Made by a program: the position numbers and the translations under genes
The notes under the pieces: generated by a model
Told to the model about the DNA's origin: nothing
Seen by the model: only the letters and a program-made list of their open reading frames with translations
Database searches by the model: none
Shown: piece after piece, positions 31,689-40,648 of the stretch
Position numbering within the stretch: the stretch's first letter is position 1
Layout of the letters: each line of letters starts with the position of its first letter
IMG/VR virus record: IMGVR_UViG_3300032898_000005
Span: 1 to 59,312 of that record
Length of the DNA: 59,312 nucleotides
Direction: 5' to 3' (one strand)
Origin: a virus

Positions 31689-32519
31689 CTAGCTGCAGGC
31701 GTTGACCCCGGTGATGTCGCCGGTCTGGCCGGACGCGGCGTCCGCCCACTGCTCGCAGGTGTTCGGCGCGCTGTACGTCCAGGACCAGTTCGTCAGGTTC
31801 GGCGTGCTGATCACCGTGCCGCTGGCGAAGAACAGGCTCACCCAGTCGGTCGTGCTCGGGGTGTCGCCCGTCACCGTGCCGGGCACCGCCGCCGTGGGGC
31901 TGCCCGAGCTGGCGTAGAACTCCACGTCGCTGCCGCCGGTGAACGTTCCGTCGACCACTCCGCTGATCGGCGTGCCCTTGCTCGGGGAGTCCGCCCCGCT
32001 GACCGTCTGGAACGTGCCCGAGTCCGCGATCGTGCCCGTGTAGAACCAGCAGGCTGCCGCGCCGCTGCCGCAGTCGGCGGCCGGGGCCGCGCCGTGCCGC
32101 GTTACCGACACCGTTCGCGTGTACGCGTCCTTGGCCCAGTTCCCGTTGTCGCCGCTGTCGTCGCGGTCCGACACCGCAGTCGTCGCGGTCGCTGCCACCG
32201 GCTCGTACGAGGCCCCGGCGGGACCCTGCGGCCCGGTCGCGCCCTTGGGTCCCTGCGGCCCGGTCGCCCCGGTCGCGCCCTTTGCCCCGGTCGCGCCGGT
32301 AGCGCCCTTCGGCCCCACCGCGCCAGTGAACGTCTTGTACTTGGCCGGGCAGGTGTTGTGCACCGCCAGCACGCTGCCGCCCGCGTTGTAGCACAGCTTG
32401 TTCGGCGCAGGAGTGGCCGCCGTCGACGTCGCCGCCACCGCCACCCCTCCGGCCAGGGTCAGCGCGGCGACCGCCGCGATGACCAGCGCGGAGACCCGCG
32501 CCCTCGTCGTCTTGAACAC
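31689..32519 (-). CDS. Secreted collagen-like repeat protein (276 aa)
   Basis: Signal peptide: basic start (MFKTTRARV), hydrophobic core [17 protein letters not shown] and AVA-A cleavage-type site near residue 29. Residues about 68-102 are Gly-X-Y triplets ([20 protein letters not shown] and onward). The rest is a Ser/Thr-rich domain with several Cys ([14 protein letters not shown]) that could form disulfides outside the cell. GTG start with GGAGA upstream. Triplet repeats are common in phage tail fibres, but this protein has an export signal and sits with replication-side genes, so a secreted or cell-surface protein made during infection is the likelier reading. Confidence 0.8.
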
Positions 32520-33794: not shown

Positions 33795-34430
33795 TTACGA
33801 GCCGCTCGACCCGAACCCGGCCTGGCCCCGCTCGCCCTCGGGCAGGTCCAGGCCCTTGGGCAGCGTGACCACCTCGACCTGCTCCATCAGGTTGGGCAGC
33901 ACGATCAGCTGGCCCATCCGCGTGCCTGCGGGCAGGTGCAGCCGCTCGGCGTAGTCCTCGCTGGTGACCGGACGGAACAGCATCACGAACAGCTCGCCGC
34001 GCCACGTCTCGTCGATGATGCCGGGCATCACGATCACTTGGTGCTTGGCCCACGTCGACGACCGTCCCGTGATCCAGCCGAAGGTGTTGGGGGGCAGCGC
34101 GACCGCCACCCCCGTGGCAGCGTTCACGGTGTCGCCCAGGTCCATCACCACGTCCTCGGTCAGGGCCAGGTCGAGCCCGCAGTCGTGGGGGTAACTGGGC
34201 GGGCTGAACGCGGGGAACGGCTGGTCGTCCAGCCGCTTGGCCAGCAGCTTGTCCGTCCGCGACGTCCGCACCGCGTTGGCCAGGTTCTCCTGCATCGACC
34301 TGAGGCCGATCCGCCTGGGCAGCGGCGGGGCCTCCAGCGGCCCGTCTGGCACCGAGCTGCCCGGCTGGAAGGCCGCAACCAGATCGGCCAGCCGCTTCTG
34401 CTGCTCTGGGGTCGGGTTCTCCAGGCTCAT
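33795..34430 (-). CDS. dut: dUTP diphosphatase (211 aa)
   Basis: Hydrolyses dUTP to dUMP, keeping uracil out of DNA and feeding dTMP synthesis. The five trimeric-dUTPase motifs are in order: DCGLDLAL (about residue 86), GRSSTWAKHQV (about 123), MPGIIDETWRGEL (about 137), AGTRMGQLIVLPNL (about 170) and the P-loop-like GERGQAGFGSSGS at the C-terminus. An N-terminal extension of about 75 residues is longer than in single-domain dUTPases. The ATG overlaps the TGA of the MazG-like gene (ATGA), placing it in the PurZ operon, where it would clean the pool alongside Z synthesis. Confidence 0.92.
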   Translation of the reverse strand: MSLENPTPEQQKRLADLVAAFQPGSSVPDGPLEAPPLPRRIGLRSMQENLANAVRTSRTDKLLAKRLDDQPFPAFSPPSYPHDCGLDLALTEDVVMDLGDTVNAATGVAVALPPNTFGWITGRSSTWAKHQVIVMPGIIDETWRGELFVMLFRPVTSEDYAERLHLPAGTRMGQLIVLPNLMEQVEVVTLPKGLDLPEGERGQAGFGSSGS

Positions 34431-34945
34431 GCGAGCTTGCCTCCGTTCGCGCGGACGTAGCGCGCCATCCGCGCGTACGTCTCAAGGTCCTTCCAGGTGT
34501 CGTCCCCGGGCTGGTTGCCGTTCTCCCACGCGCTGAACAGCCGGGCGGCCTTGCCCAGGGCGTAGTGGGACAGGGCCAGCTCCTGGCCGACCACGGCCGG
34601 GTCGGCGGTGCCGCCCTTGGGCAGCATCCGGGCCTGGGCCGCGCCCATCACGGCCAGGTCGGACGAGCCGTACTCCGCCAGCTTGTCCAGCATGTCCTTG
34701 AGGTCCGCCTCGAACTGGGCGCGCATCCAGACCTCGATCGGGCTGGCCGAGGAGGCGGCGATGCCCCGGGCGACGTCCAGGGAGCTGATCGGGACGGCCT
34801 TGCCGTTGGCGTCGTGCGTGTACGAGGTGCGGTTGGAGAAGCGCACGCCGCAGACCTGGCACTGATCGCCGGGCTGTGGCTCCTCGCTGGTCCAGACGTG
34901 ACCGTTGGCGTCGGTGTACGTCTGCGGGTAACCGGGCTGAGTCAC
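34427..34945 (-). CDS. MazG-like nucleotide pyrophosphohydrolase, MazZ candidate (172 aa)
   Basis: An N-terminal CQVCG zinc-like pair precedes an all-alpha domain. The second half (LKDMLDKLAEYGSSDLAVMG, then GKAARLFSAWENG, then DDTWKDLETYARMARYV) matches the helix plan of MazG/DUF1599-type NTP pyrophosphohydrolases, with K-RL and D-DL-YA positions conserved. In Z-genome phages MazZ cuts dGTP to dGMP, the PurZ substrate. Adjacency to the PurZ-type gene (1-bp gap) and dUTPase (ATGA overlap) supports that role. The classical EExxE box is not clear, so the exact activity is inferred. Confidence 0.7.
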   Translation of the reverse strand: MTQPGYPQTYTDANGHVWTSEEPQPGDQCQVCGVRFSNRTSYTHDANGKAVPISSLDVARGIAASSASPIEVWMRAQFEADLKDMLDKLAEYGSSDLAVMGAAQARMLPKGGTADPAVVGQELALSHYALGKAARLFSAWENGNQPGDDTWKDLETYARMARYVRANGGKLA

Positions 34946-34946
34946 G

Positions 34947-36149
34947 TCACATTCCCTTGCGTAGGTCGATCACGGAGTCGGGGCCGGTGCCGACCAGCTC
35001 GACCAGCGCGCCGATGTCGCGCGAGATCTTGGTGATCAGCGAGTAGTACCGGGCCGCGTCGGCGTCCTCGGTAAGGTTGCCGATGTCGGTCATGCCGCGC
35101 AGGGCCGGGATCACGTGGTCGGCCATGGTGAGGGCCGCCCGGACCGGGCCGGGTCCGCCGTTCGGGTGCATCCCGTTGGCCACCATCGCCGCGCGGGCCT
35201 GCGGCCCGTTCCAGAGGCCGACCCGGCGGATCTTGCGGGTCACGGTGGTAAGCTCGGGCTCCAGTCCCAGCTCCTCCCACGTCACCTCGTTGGTGAGGGG
35301 ACCGGAGTCGCCCGCCACCCGGATCGGGTAAGTGCGGAACACCACCCACACCTCCAGCTGCTCGGGCTCGACCACCCACGGCGACAGACCGGCCATGGAC
35401 AGGAAGTCGATCGCGGTGCAGTCTGAGGTGGTGCACTTCGGATAGTGTCCCGCGTGAGTGCCCAGCAGGTGCCCCTGGGTTCCCTCGATCAGCACGTCGC
35501 CGCCGTCGCGGGTCCACTGGGCCGCGATGTCCGCCACCGAGTGAGTGACGTGCACGTAGTTCTCCGCGCCGATGTCGAGGGAGTACCCGCTGGAGAGCTG
35601 GCCGATGATCCTGGCACCTCGCATGGCGCGGTCCGCGCGGGCCGCCCCGACGCCCTTGCCGGTCGAGCCGATCCGTCCCACGAGCTGCTCGGCCGCCTCC
35701 GCCTGGGCGTGGTGGGGCTCCAGTACGGTGGCCTGGTGGTCGACGATCAGCCGCTGGCTGACGTGGTACCCGGCGGCGTCTAGAAGGCGCAGCTCGCGGC
35801 TGAGGATGGCCAGGTCGACCTCGGACCCGGCCGCGATCGCGAGCGTCTCCGTCTGGTTCGAGACCGCCGCGACGGGCACCTGCTGCAGCCGCCACGGGTG
35901 AGCGTCAGAAGCGTGATGGCCAGGACTGAGCGGACTGCCCGCGTGGAACGCCATAAGAGCGGCGTCGCCCAGATTGGCGGCCGAGTCCTCGCAGTCGGGC
36001 GGGCACCGGCCGATGACGGTGTGCCCGGCGTTGGGTCCGGCCACCCGGATCGACAGGCCCCGGCGGTGCTCGCGGGCGAGGAACGCGGCGATCGCGCCCT
36101 TGCCCTCCGACCCGGCCTGCCCGCCGACTACCACTTGCAGTTGCGACAC
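34947..36149 (-). CDS. purZ: PurZ-type (amino)adenylosuccinate synthetase (400 aa)
   Basis: PurA-family fold: P-loop VVVGGQAGSEGKG (residues 6-18), VAGPNAGHTVI with the catalytic His (H43), EGTQGHLLGTHAGHYPKCTT near residue 220, RRVGLWN and the C-terminal VGTGPD. The catalytic Asp of PurA (GDEGKG) is Ser14 here (GSEGKG). Loss of that Asp is reported for PurZ of 2-aminoadenine phages, which condenses dGMP with Asp to give N6-succino-2-amino-dAMP; host PurB and kinases then yield dZTP. GTG start with GGAGGT upstream. Operon: 54-aa gene, purZ, MazG-like, dUTPase. Confidence 0.88.
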   Translation of the reverse strand: MSQLQVVVGGQAGSEGKGAIAAFLAREHRRGLSIRVAGPNAGHTVIGRCPPDCEDSAANLGDAALMAFHAGSPLSPGHHASDAHPWRLQQVPVAAVSNQTETLAIAAGSEVDLAILSRELRLLDAAGYHVSQRLIVDHQATVLEPHHAQAEAAEQLVGRIGSTGKGVGAARADRAMRGARIIGQLSSGYSLDIGAENYVHVTHSVADIAAQWTRDGGDVLIEGTQGHLLGTHAGHYPKCTTSDCTAIDFLSMAGLSPWVVEPEQLEVWVVFRTYPIRVAGDSGPLTNEVTWEELGLEPELTTVTRKIRRVGLWNGPQARAAMVANGMHPNGGPGPVRAALTMADHVIPALRGMTDIGNLTEDADAARYYSLITKISRDIGALVELVGTGPDSVIDLRKGM

Positions 36150-36150
36150 G

Positions 36151-36315
36151 CTAGTACCTCCAGGTTGAGATGACCCTACCGGCCTGCTGACGGCGGACCC
36201 GGTAGACCGGGTACCACAACCCGCAGGTGGACAGCATCATCAGGCAATGAAACGCGAACTCCGGCCCGGACATGCCGGACCGGACCTTGGTCACCCGTAC
36301 CAGGCGTTCGTGCAC
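36151..36315 (-). CDS. Small membrane-type protein (54 aa) leading the PurZ operon
   Basis: The GTG at 36315 has GAGGAG upstream and is the first start after the promoter at 36360. The protein has SGPEFAFHCLMMLSTCGLWY, a short amphipathic membrane segment flanked by basic residues, then YRVRRQQAGR. Small proteins of this 'FH..M...TCGLW.PVY' style recur in actinophages. Its stop precedes purZ by 1 bp. Function unknown. Confidence 0.62.
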   Translation of the reverse strand: MHERLVRVTKVRSGMSGPEFAFHCLMMLSTCGLWYPVYRVRRQQAGRVISTWRY

Positions 36316-36359: not shown

Positions 36360-36388
36360 AGAATACCGCGTGCTTGTCACCGTGTCAA
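36360..36388 (-). promoter_or_regulatory. Promoter of the purZ operon, TTGACA-17-TATTCT
   Basis: -35 at 36383-36388 overlaps the end of the resolvase gene; -10 at 36360-36365. Likely transcript: 54-aa gene, purZ, MazG-like gene, dut. Confidence 0.75.
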
Positions 36389-36934
36389 CGGGCTGGACTT
36401 ATTCCTGGCACTCCAAACTATCCCGTGCGAGCAGGCGTCCCGGCGGTGCGGCATCCCGGGCAGGTCGAAGTCGGGGCCACGGTACTTGAACCTGCCGGAG
36501 CCGAGGGCGCGGTCCTTCATGCGGAACCCGGCGTCCAGGGCGATCGCGCGGCCCGCCTTCAGGTTGCCCTTGGCGTCCTGCAGGGTGACCGGCACGTCGT
36601 TGCGCTTGGCGATGTAGCGGACCACCCCCACGCACTGAGAGGTCAGCAGCTCGGAGTAGCCCTGCTCGCGCGCCAGCCACGGGTACAGTGAGTAGCGTTC
36701 GAGGACGACGTGGTGGAGCAGGCGGATATCGCGCTCCAGGGCGGAGTGCAGGTCGTCCGGGCGAAGGGTAAGGGCCTCGACCAGCCGTATCCGGCCCTTC
36801 TTCGACTGGTCGAGGTACTCGCCCTTCCCCGGCTCGGTAGACCCGGGCCACAGCTCGAACCGGGCGAGCCCGCACCACGACTCGCCCGGGTCCACCGCGT
36901 CGACCTTGTAGACGCGGCCCTTGGCCAGGCTCAT
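36377..36934 (-). CDS. Putative RNase H-like Holliday junction resolvase (185 aa)
   Basis: Starts MSLAKGRVYKVDAVDPGESW: the VDPG segment fits the first catalytic Asp of RuvC-type folds. A later VVLERYSLYP could supply the second acid, and HRRDACSHGIVWSA near the C-terminus has the D-A-x-x-H pattern of phage RuvC-like nucleases. The ATG overlaps the previous stop (ATGA). It lies in the DNA polymerase operon, fitting a role in resolving branched replication or packaging DNA. Similarity is by motif pattern only; other RNase H-fold nucleases are possible. Confidence 0.6.
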   Translation of the reverse strand: MSLAKGRVYKVDAVDPGESWCGLARFELWPGSTEPGKGEYLDQSKKGRIRLVEALTLRPDDLHSALERDIRLLHHVVLERYSLYPWLAREQGYSELLTSQCVGVVRYIAKRNDVPVTLQDAKGNLKAGRAIALDAGFRMKDRALGSGRFKYRGPDFDLPGMPHRRDACSHGIVWSARNKSSPLTR

Positions 36935-37113
36935 ATCGTGTACCACCACCGACGCCAGGCCCGGGTGCGCTTGCGGCGGACCCGGCCGCCGCCGGGCACC
37001 CACTCGCGCAGGCACAGCAGGCAGATGTACCGGCCGTCCGCCGCGCCACGGCGCGCGAGCTGGTGCTTGTGCGGCCACAGCAGCCGCCACCGGGACATGC
37101 GGCCGGTGCTCAC
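36931..37113 (-). CDS. Basic zinc-like mini-protein (60 aa)
   Basis: MSTGRMSRWRLLWPHKHQLA, then YICLLCLREWVPGGG and a strongly basic tail. One CxxC plus His residues suggest a small zinc or nucleic-acid-binding protein. It overlaps genes on both sides by 4 nt, so it belongs to the polymerase operon. Unrecognised. Confidence 0.6.
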   Translation of the reverse strand: MSTGRMSRWRLLWPHKHQLARRGAADGRYICLLCLREWVPGGGRVRRKRTRAWRRWWYTI

Positions 37114-37322
37114 AGCGGCACCGTCGGGTCGGAGTCGGTCAGCATGACGATGCTGATCGTGAACGAGTCGGCGGCCCGGCCCAGGTAGATCGTGTGCAGG
37201 TCGGTGCGGTCGAGGTGCTGGTTCAGGTGCTTATCGCCAGCGACTGACGCGCGCTCGGCTGTGGAGTATGCGCCGCCCGCCAGCTGACACTTGCACGACC
37301 ACATGTGGGTTGGCTCCATCAC
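37110..37322 (-). CDS. Small protein (70 aa) after DNA polymerase
   Basis: MMEPTHMWSCKCQLAGGAYS, a His/Asp-rich middle (DKHLNQHLDRTDLHTIYLG) and a hydrophobic SFTISIVML. It overlaps the polymerase stop by 4 nt. No domain recognised; expressed with the polymerase. Confidence 0.6.
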   Translation of the reverse strand: MMEPTHMWSCKCQLAGGAYSTAERASVAGDKHLNQHLDRTDLHTIYLGRAADSFTISIVMLTDSDPTVPL

Positions 37323-39301
37323 ACTGCCTCAAGGTAAGAGGTGTGGCCGAAGGGCTTAGTGTCGGCCTTAAAAGGGACTCCCGAGAACAGTCGACTGAAA
37401 GTCGACACGATGGTGTCCTGCATCAGGGCGGAGACCCTTTCCACGTCGGTGACGGGAATGCGGTCAACCAGGGAGTCGTGAATCTGGAGGACCAGCATGC
37501 CGGGGCACTCGCGGTCGTGCTTGACCATGGCTATGCGCATCGCCTCGGAGACGTCGCCCTGGACTCGCTGGTTAAAGGCCTTGTGGACCGGCTCGTAGTC
37601 CGCGAACTTCCGGACCTTGCCGGTGCAGAGGCGGACGAAACCGTTCTCGGTGGCCATGTCGGAGTACTGGTACAGGGCGCGGGCGAAACCGGGGAACGCG
37701 TTCTTGTAATCGGAGATGAACTCGCGGGTCTGGTCCACGGTGTACTCGTAGCCGGTGAACTTGGCGATCTGGGCCTTGAGTTCCTTGGCCCCGATGCCGT
37801 AGAGGATGCCGAGGTTGCAGCGCTTGGCCACGCCTCGGTAGCGCTCCCAGTCGGGGTCGAGCAGGGCGTCGGCCAGGGCGGTCGACGGGTAGAACATGAG
37901 CTTGCAGGCCGCGTTGTGGGAGTCGACGCCCTTCTTGAGGGCGCGCAGCATGTTCTTCTCCTTGGCCACCCAGGTAGCCACGCGAATCTCGGCCTGGCTG
38001 GCGTCCGACTCCCAGTACTCGTAGCCGGGGTCGTAGCCGAGGAACCTGCGGATCGGTTCGAGGCCGGAGGGGATCTGGTAGTCGTGAGGGAGGGCCTGGG
38101 CCTGCCAGCGCTCGACCGAGAGACGGCCGGAGACGACGCGGCCCTGCCGGTGGCAAGTGCGCAGGCGCCCGTCCGGGCCGACGAGGGCGGGGAAGGCCGC
38201 GTACCACTTGCTGTTGGCCGACTGCAGCTCCTGGAAATGGGCGTACTCGGCAGCGCCGGGGGCGTTGAGCTTGATCAGGCGCTGGACCGACTCGTCGTCG
38301 ACCTGGGGCCTGCCACCGGCGGTCATCTTGTCGGCGTAGGGGAGGTAGCCCAGGCCGCCGTCCTTGGGTGCGCCGAAGAAGTACTTGACGGCGGCGGGTC
38401 CGGTGGGCTTGCCGGTGCCGCCCTTGAACGGTACGGCGGAGGCGGCCTCCTTGATCAGGCCGGTGAGCTTTACGGACTCGCGACGGCATCCGTCGGAATC
38501 GAACCCGACGCCGCGCTTCTCCATGCCGTAGAGGGTGCGCATCAGGGCCTGCTCCTCCTCGATCCGGATCGAGAGCTGGTCGGTGAGGAGGGTCTGCTGG
38601 TGCTCGTAGAGCAGGTAGGTGAGCTGGGCGTCACGCTGGGCGTAGGTGCCGAGGACGGACCAGGGGATGAGGTCGTACCGGGGGTCGGCCTGGGGACCCT
38701 TCCACGGGGCGAGGGCCTCGGCCTCGTCGGCCTCCGCTCCCTCCTCGATGCCAAGCTCCTTGCCGATGTTGAGGCGGACCGAGGTGGGCTTGAGCGAGGT
38801 GGACTCGCCCGGCCACAGCTGGCCGGAGGCGAGCATGGTGTCCCACACCACGCGGGAACCTAGGTCGTAGTGGCCGCCGTCCCACGGGGGGCAGGCGGGG
38901 CCGTCCGAGGTGCAGTACTGGTCGTGGGGGCGGTCGCGCTGGCCTGCCAGGAACATCAGCAGGTCGTACTTGGCGTTCTGCAGGATGAGATGCTGGCGGG
39001 ACAGCCAGCGCATGAGCTGGTCCCACGCGGCCAGGGACCGGTTGGGAGTGTAGAGGTCGGCGTCCGACCACTTGGAGATCCGGCGCAGGTGCGAGGACGG
39101 GATCTGCTTGGGGCCGAGGGGAAGGCACCCGTCGTAGTATCCCTGGTCGAAAGGGACGGCGATCGAGACAAGCTCGGCGGTGACGGGATCGCGCCAGGCG
39201 GCGGAGACGGCGGAGACGCGGGCACCGTCGTCAGCGAAGAGACCAGAGTCCTCGGAGTCCAGGGCGACAAGGTGGTCGGAGACGTCGGGGAGTCGGGTCA
39301 T
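37319..39301 (-). CDS. Family A DNA polymerase with 3'-5' exonuclease (660 aa)
   Basis: The ATG at 39301 overlaps the upstream stop. Exonuclease motifs: ALDSED (D15, E17), LQNAKYDLLMF (about 115) and YAQRDAQLTY (about 220). Polymerase motifs: A, ESDASQAEIRV (about 432); B, AKRCNLGILYGIG (about 494); C, VLQIHDSLVDR (about 607). Motif C reads HDS instead of the usual HDE, and the motif B Phe is Leu. In Z-genome phages a family A polymerase (DpoZ) often accompanies PurZ, so this enzyme probably copies DNA with dZTP; that is inference. It heads the replication functions of this operon. Confidence 0.93.
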   Translation of the reverse strand: MTRLPDVSDHLVALDSEDSGLFADDGARVSAVSAAWRDPVTAELVSIAVPFDQGYYDGCLPLGPKQIPSSHLRRISKWSDADLYTPNRSLAAWDQLMRWLSRQHLILQNAKYDLLMFLAGQRDRPHDQYCTSDGPACPPWDGGHYDLGSRVVWDTMLASGQLWPGESTSLKPTSVRLNIGKELGIEEGAEADEAEALAPWKGPQADPRYDLIPWSVLGTYAQRDAQLTYLLYEHQQTLLTDQLSIRIEEEQALMRTLYGMEKRGVGFDSDGCRRESVKLTGLIKEAASAVPFKGGTGKPTGPAAVKYFFGAPKDGGLGYLPYADKMTAGGRPQVDDESVQRLIKLNAPGAAEYAHFQELQSANSKWYAAFPALVGPDGRLRTCHRQGRVVSGRLSVERWQAQALPHDYQIPSGLEPIRRFLGYDPGYEYWESDASQAEIRVATWVAKEKNMLRALKKGVDSHNAACKLMFYPSTALADALLDPDWERYRGVAKRCNLGILYGIGAKELKAQIAKFTGYEYTVDQTREFISDYKNAFPGFARALYQYSDMATENGFVRLCTGKVRKFADYEPVHKAFNQRVQGDVSEAMRIAMVKHDRECPGMLVLQIHDSLVDRIPVTDVERVSALMQDTIVSTFSRLFSGVPFKADTKPFGHTSYLEAV

Positions 39302-39420
39302 CGTCCTGTCGCAATGTGGTAGACGGTGCTGGCGACGAAGCACAGCACCAGGGCGGCCAGCGCGATGCGGAGCATGGCGTCGGTTGACGGAATGAATCGG
39401 CCGGGGCCTCGGACGCTCAC
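39298..39420 (-). CDS. Single-span membrane mini-protein (40 aa)
   Basis: GTG at 39420 overlaps the preceding TGA (GTGA) and its own TGA overlaps the polymerase ATG. One membrane helix (LRIALAALVLCFVASTVY). Its tight coupling to the polymerase gene supports translation. Confidence 0.55.
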   Translation of the reverse strand: MSVRGPGRFIPSTDAMLRIALAALVLCFVASTVYHIATGR

Positions 39421-39527
39421 GGGGCGACTCCGAGGTAGGTGAGGGAGATAGCGAGGGCGCAGGCCGCAGAGAGCAGGCCGAGGATAAGTAGGAAGTCGCG
39501 GACGGCGACGAGGTAGCGGTACGTCAC
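39417..39527 (-). CDS. Single-span membrane mini-protein (36 aa)
   Basis: GTG at 39527 overlaps the TGA of the HAD-like gene. [20 protein letters not shown] followed by a hydrophobic [13 protein letters not shown]: almost entirely a membrane segment. A longer frame to 39926 in this phase is a shadow. Confidence 0.55.
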
Positions 39528-39943
39528 TGGTTGCCGATCCCGTCGACCCGGTAGGCGAGCTGGTTGACGATGGCGATAGCGTTGTCGAGGTGGTCGGCGG
39601 ACTGGCCGAACTCTAGGCGGACGGCGCGGTCGTCGAGGTAGGCGACGGCGGCGACCTTGCGGTTGGTGACGAGGACGACATCGCCGTCGCCTGGGCCGCC
39701 GGTCCAGAACGAGCGGGTCATGTCGGGGTCGGGCTGGACGCGGAAGCTGAGACGGCGCAGGACCTGGGCGACCGGCTCGACCGGGCGGCAGGTGGAGACG
39801 ACCACGGCGTAGGCGAGAATGTGAAGGCGGCGGATGATGGTGGCGTCGATCTTGCCGTAGATCGCGCCGTCCTGCCAGCCGTTCTCGTAGGAGTGAATCA
39901 GGCCGTCGAAGTCGACGGAGACGCACTGTCGTCGTGTGGGCAT
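39524..39943 (-). CDS. HAD-superfamily-like phosphatase (139 aa)
   Basis: The first strand [16 protein letters not shown] holds the DxD motif (D11, D13 by count) of HAD hydrolases. A VVVSTCRP segment fits motif II (S/T), and VAYLDDRAV fits the acidic motif IV. Short, with no obvious cap domain. It may act on nucleotides or polynucleotide ends, given the polymerase and methyltransferase neighbours. The family call is motif-based; the substrate is unknown. Confidence 0.72.
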
Positions 39944-40648
39944 CTAAGCTCCTATGCTATAAAGATACTCGACGGGTAGGGCCTTGCCGCTCCTGATGCC
40001 AGCGCTCCGCTGGCCCTCCCATACCACGGACAGTCCGGGGATGCGCTCGTATTCCGACAAGAACACCGCGCACTCGCGATCTGCCCATTTCCTGGCCCTG
40101 CGGATCAGGCGGTCCAGGTCCAGGTCCTGATAACTGCTGTTGTGGTTCTTGGTACGGGACTGGTACGGAGGGTCGCAGTAGATCACGCACCCCATCGGCG
40201 GGCGCAAGGTGTCGTATGATCGCGTCATGAACTGTCGTATGCCGCCGTGGTCGCGGATCTGAGCGGCCTGGCGCATGACGGTACGACTGGAGGCAGCTGC
40301 TGACATGTTGCCCCGTCCGTAGCCCTCGAACCATATGCCGCCGAAAGAGCACCCGTAGCCGACGAACCCCCGCAAGGCGGACGGGCTGGCGTGACGCAAG
40401 CTCCGGTACTCGTCTTCGGACACCGCGTCGGGCGGGGTCCACCCACCGTTAACCACGGCGTCCCACATCAGCACGAGGTCTTCGTGCACGTCGCTCCCTA
40501 CCGCCTTGTGAAAATGGGGGGCCATCTTGGCGAACACGGACGCTCCGCCCAGGAACGGCTCCCAGTAGGTCAGTCTCTCATTGGTGTGGCGAAGCATGAC
40601 AGCGGCCAGCTGACTAGCTATCCGGTGCTTGCCGCCCATATATTGCAT
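39944..40648 (-). CDS. DNA adenine-N6 methyltransferase, Dam/D12 class (234 aa)
   Basis: Starts MQYMGGKHRIASQLA, the AdoMet-binding beginning of D12-class enzymes, then YWEPFLGGASVFAK (motif I, about residue 30), SDVHEDLVLMWDAV and the catalytic CDPPYQSRTK (DPPY about residue 159). Length is normal. It is the first gene of the polymerase operon, behind its own promoter. In a phage predicted to carry 2-aminoadenine, the substrate question is open: it may methylate Z, residual A or host DNA. It could protect against restriction. Confidence 0.9.
   Translation of the reverse strand: MQYMGGKHRIASQLAAVMLRHTNERLTYWEPFLGGASVFAKMAPHFHKAVGSDVHEDLVLMWDAVVNGGWTPPDAVSEDEYRSLRHASPSALRGFVGYGCSFGGIWFEGYGRGNMSAAASSRTVMRQAAQIRDHGGIRQFMTRSYDTLRPPMGCVIYCDPPYQSRTKNHNSSYQDLDLDRLIRRARKWADRECAVFLSEYERIPGLSVVWEGQRSAGIRSGKALPVEYLYSIGA

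Follow-up and report, generated by a model that had tools for sequence, protein, structure and literature searches.

The IMG/VR virus record IMGVR_UViG_3300032898_000005, analysed here over its whole length of 59,312 bases (hereafter the window; 67% G+C, linear, no terminal repeat found), bears on its minus strand a compact group of genes that in all likelihood constitutes a PurZ0-type cassette for a genome containing 2-aminoadenine (Z). In the direction of transcription the locus comprises a DNA polymerase gene (39343-37319), a small open reading frame (ORF), an ORF with a RuvC-like motif (37090-36377), a promoter-like site (36388-36360), an ORF of 54 amino acids (aa), a PurA-like gene assigned below as PurZ0 (36149-34947), a gene referred to here as the middle gene (34945-34427) and a dUTPase homologue (34430-33795). 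Genes elsewhere in the window for a terminase large subunit, a PrimPol, a Sak4-like protein, an exonuclease and an endolysin-like protein mark the record as all or much of the genome of a tailed phage. The last three genes of the locus form a tight operon, as a first-pass annotation of this DNA had stated: a single nucleotide (nt) separates the PurZ0 stop from the start of the middle gene, whose own stop is overlapped by the dUTPase-like gene by 4 nt (ATGA). The principal features are as follows.

34947..36149, minus strand: PurZ0, N6-succino-2-amino-2'-deoxyadenylate synthase, 400 aa; GTG start, GGAGG ribosome site
36108..36110, minus strand: Ser14 codon, aligned with the PurA catalytic Asp
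36021..36023, minus strand: His43 codon, aligned with the catalytic His and retained (NAGH)
35904..36014, minus strand: insert at residues about 46-82, CPxxC...H...HPW, following NAGHTV
34427..34945, minus strand: middle gene, 172 aa; all-helical family without a name, linked to PurZ0; candidate dNTP pyrophosphohydrolase
33795..34430, minus strand: DutZ-type dUTPase homologue, 211 aa; PF00692, 9.4e-19
37319..39343, minus strand: DpoZ-1 type family A DNA polymerase, 674 aa; PF00476, 1.6e-33

The PurA-like protein and the PurZ0 clade

Residues 6-18 of the PurA-like protein are VVVGGQAGSEGKG, and residues 39-43 are PNAGH. In an alignment that included E. coli PurA, Ser14 stands opposite the Asp of the PurA motif GDEGKG and His43 opposite the catalytic His, and both are invariant in the 12 PurZ0 proteins compared; the GSEGKG motif with its Ser for Asp, and the retention of the catalytic His, had thus been correctly read in the first-pass annotation. 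The protein matches the Pfam model of the PurA family (PF00709, 108.9 bits) and PHROG 1211 (7e-75), does not reach the PurA equivalog cut-offs of NCBIfam, and lies above the cut-off of the curated NCBIfam PurZ model NF038379 (308.7 bits against 300). Its top match in the Protein Data Bank (PDB) is 7vf6 (3.9e-71), the PurZ0 of Gordonia phage Archimedes (PMC12884076). The phylogenetic check proposed earlier, a tree of 124 phage and cellular proteins, sets the window protein not with PurA but inside a phage PurZ0 clade of 45 rows (support 100) together with Archimedes (7VF6), Ghobes, Wayne, Hiyaa and Microbacterium phages; the PurZ proteins of phiVC8, S-2L, Bhz9 and Bm1 form a separate clade (support 100), and the window protein is not among them. 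Its nearest neighbours in the tree are four IMG/VR loci, L020-L023 (48-57% identity), with which the window makes up a distinct sub-lineage among PurZ0 Z-DNA phages. No named phage has a PurZ0 more than 48% identical to it, and identity to the characterised enzymes is 35-48%.

In the alignment the T-x-x-D base-recognition motif, which in PurA contacts the guanine of GTP, is present in the window protein and in other PurZ0 proteins and absent from those of phiVC8 and Bm1. Because this motif is retained, the window PurZ0 probably uses GTP. PurZ0 is said to take GTP and PurZ to take ATP, a distinction reportedly due to Tong et al. 2023. One sentence in PMC12884076 states the reverse order, and the PurZ of S-2L accepts ATP or dATP (PMC8342488).

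The Cys/His insert is missing from the characterised PurZ0 proteins of Archimedes, Wayne and Ghobes, and variants of it occur in Streptomyces phages and in about 20 IMG/VR loci, among them the close relatives of the window. It is plausibly predicted to be a small zinc knuckle. The corresponding insert of locus L099 has two CxxC pairs and is zinc-ribbon-like.

Ser in place of Asp in cellular relatives

The assumption that loss of this Asp marks PurZ did not survive a scan of cellular genomes, one per species, for GSE-type PurA relatives, in which 353 contigs were confirmed by one pattern scan and the 80 best were kept. GSEGKG or GSEAKG was found by motif search in 77 of the 80, and YGSEGKG is visible by eye in two more (L166 and L167); as the scan patterns required GSE or RV[AG]GPNAG, these counts show commonness and not a share among all PurA relatives. 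All cellular rows of the tree fall outside the phage PurZ0 clade, except L100; the L101 protein, incomplete as extracted, was under the length limit and so is outside the tree. The exception (L100:4001-5379) lies on a contig assigned to an uncultured Verrucomicrobia metagenome-assembled genome (MAG) and, because a phage-type PurZ0 and the middle gene stand on it together, probably comes from a phage, either as a contig binned with the MAG or as a prophage. Since most of the cellular relatives examined share the change, Ser for Asp by itself is insufficient to mark a phage Z system, and the window protein is assigned to phages on the tree, the curated PurZ model and its neighbours, not on residue Ser14.

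A recurring protein begins about 1 kb downstream of the Ser-type PurA relative in 57 of 78 of these loci (L101-L179, for example L104:2371-4133), and that of L104 is weakly dCTP-deaminase-like (PF22769, slightly under cut-off). Other chromosomal Ser-type PurA loci have a deoxynucleoside kinase, a DUF7002 protein, an unnamed 235-aa protein or a fused P-loop domain. Such loci look like an uncharacterised nucleotide-metabolism or defence cassette. Given that cellular GSEGKG relatives are common and so often have this adjacent protein, the operon in the window might be taken for a cellular-type system built around a GSE PurA paralogue and unrelated to phage DNA, but its PurA-like protein belongs to the phage clade and is encoded near DpoZ-1 and DutZ in a record with PrimPol and terminase; such an origin, already disfavoured by the tree, is most improbable.

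DutZ, DpoZ-1 and the removal of dATP

The third gene of the operon had been labelled a dUTPase, which is right as to homology but not as to type: the protein is, by its position in a tree and by its motif, a DutZ. In that tree of 50 sequences, only eight of them non-Z dUTPases, it lies on the Z-phage side of the branch dividing Z from non-Z proteins (support 99/99); L039, with a very long branch and probably a mis-extracted stretch, was set aside. It has the motif GRSST, as in Wayne, where Ghobes has GRSSA and six of the eight non-Z dUTPases have RSG. An N-terminal extension of about 77 aa appears not to be DmtZ. The protein is about 35-41% identical to those of named phages, and in motif III it has Trp for Tyr (IIDETWRGE), as do L020-L023; the other sequences displayed in the alignment differ. 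According to PMC12884076, a dUTPase homologue is present in every PurZ0 genome surveyed, and those of Ghobes and Wayne hydrolyse dATP, dGTP and dUTP, with a turnover of dATP about tenfold that of dGTP.

A DatZ-type HD domain (PF12917; YfbR-like) was not found in the record, as had been noted before, nor was a phage PurB, and the window is not among the phmmer matches listed for DmtZ (NDT-like domain); because the record is perhaps incomplete, none of these is proof of absence. It had been argued that without DatZ the exclusion of dATP must come from MazZ or from polymerase choice. That no longer follows: the adjoining dUTPase homologue is evidently DutZ, whose tested members act on both dATP and dGTP, and it would close this gap.

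The polymerase of the window is assigned to the DpoZ-1 type from its own tree, in which a branch supported at 100 divides 29 PurZ0-phage polymerases, including this one, from three PurZ-phage and five other polymerases. Congruence of the PurZ0 and DpoZ-1 trees has been reported (PMC12884076).

Upstream, at 39944-40648, this phage, whose DNA is predicted to lack adenine, encodes a D12-class adenine-type DNA methyltransferase with its DPPY motif intact; tblastn gave no match to it in 19 other PurZ0 loci, L020-L023 included. The presence of this enzyme, and the failure to detect DatZ in the record or to see the window among the DmtZ matches listed, would suit a mixed A/Z genome in which adenine is replaced only in part, as proposed on the ground that clearance of dATP would be incomplete without DatZ and DmtZ. 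The higher turnover of dATP than of dGTP by the characterised DutZ relatives (PMC12884076) and the DpoZ-1 polymerase in the window argue against partial replacement, which is considered unlikely.

Linkage of the middle gene to PurZ0

The gene between PurZ0 and DutZ was followed with a profile made from eleven aligned sequences (Wayne excluded) with one refinement, in 82 IMG/VR loci picked by PurZ similarity alone, many of them near copies (33 left at 75% identity). In all 82, and in the one MAG, it immediately follows PurZ0, as it does, by the same profile, in Hiyaa, Galactica, Keanu, Archimedes, Ghobes, FireCastle, Olihed and Htur. The profile did not find it in Wayne or in the stretches of four PurZ phages; in Arthrobacter phage Wayne its slot is occupied by a DUF5664 protein of a type tested as a dATP/dGTP hydrolase (PMC12884076). 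In the reverse direction, a search of the viral collection seeded with a sub-alignment of middle proteins only, and sharing many contigs with the forward search, returned 72 loci, 70 of which have PurZ0 21-249 bases upstream (measured from tblastn ends); the remaining two, which begin less than 80 bases from a contig end, are truncated there. Among annotated phages, a protein search found the middle protein in 24 records, which belong to phages of Microbacterium, Gordonia, Micrococcus and Streptomyces, the adjacency to PurZ0 being checked directly in the records fetched. The parts of PMC12884076 covered do not describe this gene, and name DutZ, DmtZ and DUF5664 as the partners of PurZ0.

The middle protein had been called MazG-like, and as MazZ it was to supply dGMP. 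Neither attribution could be upheld. Models in Pfam, PHROG and NCBIfam fail to recognise it, apart from scattered weak matches of one or two family members, and the DUF550 and DUF5664 (PF18909) profiles have no match in the record. Identity with MazZ (MazZ-1 or MazZ-2/DUF550) or DUF5664 was rejected when hhalign showed no similarity to S-2L MazZ, to the purZ neighbours of phiVC8 and Bm1, to an Acinetobacter dATP/dGTP pyrophosphohydrolase or to Wayne DUF5664; because single sequences were compared with the family profile, a very distant kinship is possible. The family, as far as these models go, is without a name in Pfam, PHROG and NCBIfam although nearly always found at this position.

What the middle protein might do

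AlphaFold2 predicts a four-helix core (pLDDT 92.4, pTM 0.81), and Lys88, Glu91, Tyr92, Gly93, Glu122, Lys132, Arg135, Asp149, Asp153 and Tyr157 are near-invariant; N-terminal extensions vary across the family. The EExxE...ExxD metal-binding motif of MazG is not visible by eye in a 34-sequence alignment. Compared as a profile with the PDB, the family matched nothing but designed helical repeats and a single ribosomal protein, and Foldseek found no significant PDB match for either the full-length or the core model. Significant matches bearing a phage name in the structure collection BFVD belong to the same family (Archimedes, Ghobes), with weaker ones to DUF6378 and nucleotide-modification-associated proteins (BFVD) and to HisE (PDB, weak). 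As a test of a MazG-HisE fold, then, a confidently predicted helical core gave weak fold matches only.

The likeliest role of the middle gene product is that of a pyrophosphohydrolase acting on purine dNTPs or that of a PurZ0 partner. There is perhaps an even chance that it is an unrecognised dGTP/dATP pyrophosphohydrolase, doing in most PurZ0 phages the work of MazZ or DUF5664 by non-orthologous replacement. Its constant adjacency to PurZ0 (82 of 82 loci and one MAG; 70 of 72 in reverse) and the occupation of the Wayne slot by DUF5664, a tested hydrolase (PMC12884076), point this way, as do the compact all-helical core, the near-invariant charged residues (Lys88, Glu91, Glu122, Lys132, Arg135, Asp149 and Asp153) and the weak likeness to DUF6378, nucleotide-modification-associated proteins and HisE. 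Against it stand the missing EExxE...ExxD motif, the want of a significant PDB fold match even with a confident core, and the lack of profile similarity to MazZ, DUF5664 and DUF550; moreover, DutZ perhaps already covers both reactions. This last consideration would also suit a protein that assists PurZ0 or DutZ without catalysis, as a scaffold, a specificity subunit or a regulator, and so would the close, translationally coupled position next to PurZ0, the variable N-terminal extensions and the absence of a recognisable catalytic motif. Such strongly conserved charged residues, however, suggest a ligand or catalytic site, and Wayne has an active enzyme in the same slot (PMC12884076); a partner role is entertained as a real but lesser possibility. 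On either account it is rather probable that the middle gene founds an unrecognised family, a near-universal core component of PurZ0 Z-DNA synthesis that is replaced by DUF5664 in Arthrobacter phages.

Proposed route to Z-DNA

Family and clade assignment, gene order and tight linkage are what the sequences show; in the pathway proposed here, the reactions of each enzyme and the occurrence of Z in the phage DNA are inferred. PurZ0 would condense dGMP with aspartate, probably with GTP, to give N6-succino-2-amino-dAMP, which host PurB (host, because a phage PurB was not found) and host kinases would convert into dZTP. DutZ would hydrolyse dATP and dGTP (and dUTP) to monophosphates, at once draining the dATP pool and supplying dGMP, and the DpoZ-1 polymerase would incorporate Z instead of A when copying the DNA. 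The translationally coupled middle gene would most likely contribute an extra pyrophosphohydrolase activity on purine dNTPs, or its product would assist PurZ0 or DutZ as a partner; the order PurZ0-middle gene-DutZ recurs in Olihed and in related IMG/VR loci.

Because PurZ0 clade membership and NF038379 coincide with DutZ, DpoZ-1 and conserved synteny, it is very likely that 2-aminoadenine replaces every adenine in the DNA of this phage. To that extent the earlier prediction of 2,6-diaminopurine in place of adenine has good support, from phylogeny, from the curated PurZ model, from synteny and from the polymerase. Several points nevertheless weigh on the other side. The record is metagenomic, without a virion; with PurZ0 at most 48% and DutZ about 35-41% identical to those of named phages, substrate range could have shifted; the motif III Tyr of DutZ is Trp in the window and its four close relatives; and PurB and DatZ were not found in the record, nor DmtZ among the matches listed, in a linear record without end repeats that may be incomplete.

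Comparison with known phages

The PurZ0-style gene set is already known from some actinobacterial phages. The Streptomyces phages Hiyaa, Galactica and Keanu have a PurZ0 44-48% identical to that of the window, share the CPxxC insert and the gene order polymerase ... PurZ0 - middle gene - DutZ, but differ in having DmtZ fused to DutZ and a phage PurB, neither found in the window (DmtZ: among the matches listed), and a long N-terminal extension on the middle protein. The PurZ0 of Archimedes shares with the window the clade, the Ser at the catalytic Asp position and the GTP-type T-x-x-D, though it is only about 40% identical and lacks the Cys/His insert, and Archimedes has a separate DmtZ-like gene and PurB. 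The most similar layout is that of Micrococcus phage Olihed (polymerase - PurZ0 - middle gene - DutZ), in which only the middle gene separates PurZ0 from DutZ; its sequences are more distant, the PurZ insert is absent and DutZ retains the motif III Tyr. Wayne has PurZ0, DpoZ-1 and DutZ as in the window (PMC12884076), but DUF5664 instead of the middle gene, and DmtZ fused to DutZ. S-2L, with DatZ, MazZ and PurZ, shares the overall strategy of making dGMP and dZTP and removing dATP (PMC8342488), but its PurZ belongs to the other clade and no homologue of its DatZ or MazZ was found in the window.

Neighbouring features

Upstream of the operon are the following.

36360..36388, minus strand: sigma-70-like promoter TTGACA-17-TATTCT, upstream of the operon; a consensus match only
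36151..36315, minus strand: 54-aa ORF between promoter and purZ0, without a family match (Pfam, PHROG)
36377..37090, minus strand: 237-aa ORF, a conserved neighbour (PHROG 5202), with a RuvC-like DPG motif seen by eye

The operon had been placed under one promoter, and this site is indeed the sole promoter-like one within 33.5-37.2 kb (3.7 kb; chance expectation 0.1), although it is known as a consensus match only. The 237-aa ORF lies near PurZ0 in related loci too, and its true start is probably internal. No close DNA relatives of the window were found in the phage collection, and a PADLOC run on the operon gave no match. The segment adjoining the polymerase (39524-39943) matches PHROG 1238, named phosphoheptose isomerase, and is near PurZ0 also in L022 and L067; an ORF at 31689-32519 has collagen-like Gly-X-Y repeats and an apparent signal peptide.

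Implications

Many bacteria carry a chromosomal PurA relative with Ser for Asp, which makes this residue unsafe as a lone marker of Z systems. The window also brings to light a gene linked to PurZ0: because that linkage holds in both search directions and the gene is undescribed in the parts of the pathway paper covered (PMC12884076), the known PurZ0 pathway is probably missing a part, and the middle gene is likely to be it. If so, the middle gene would represent a further, independently recruited way of clearing dATP or supplying dGMP, or else a new type of PurZ0 partner.

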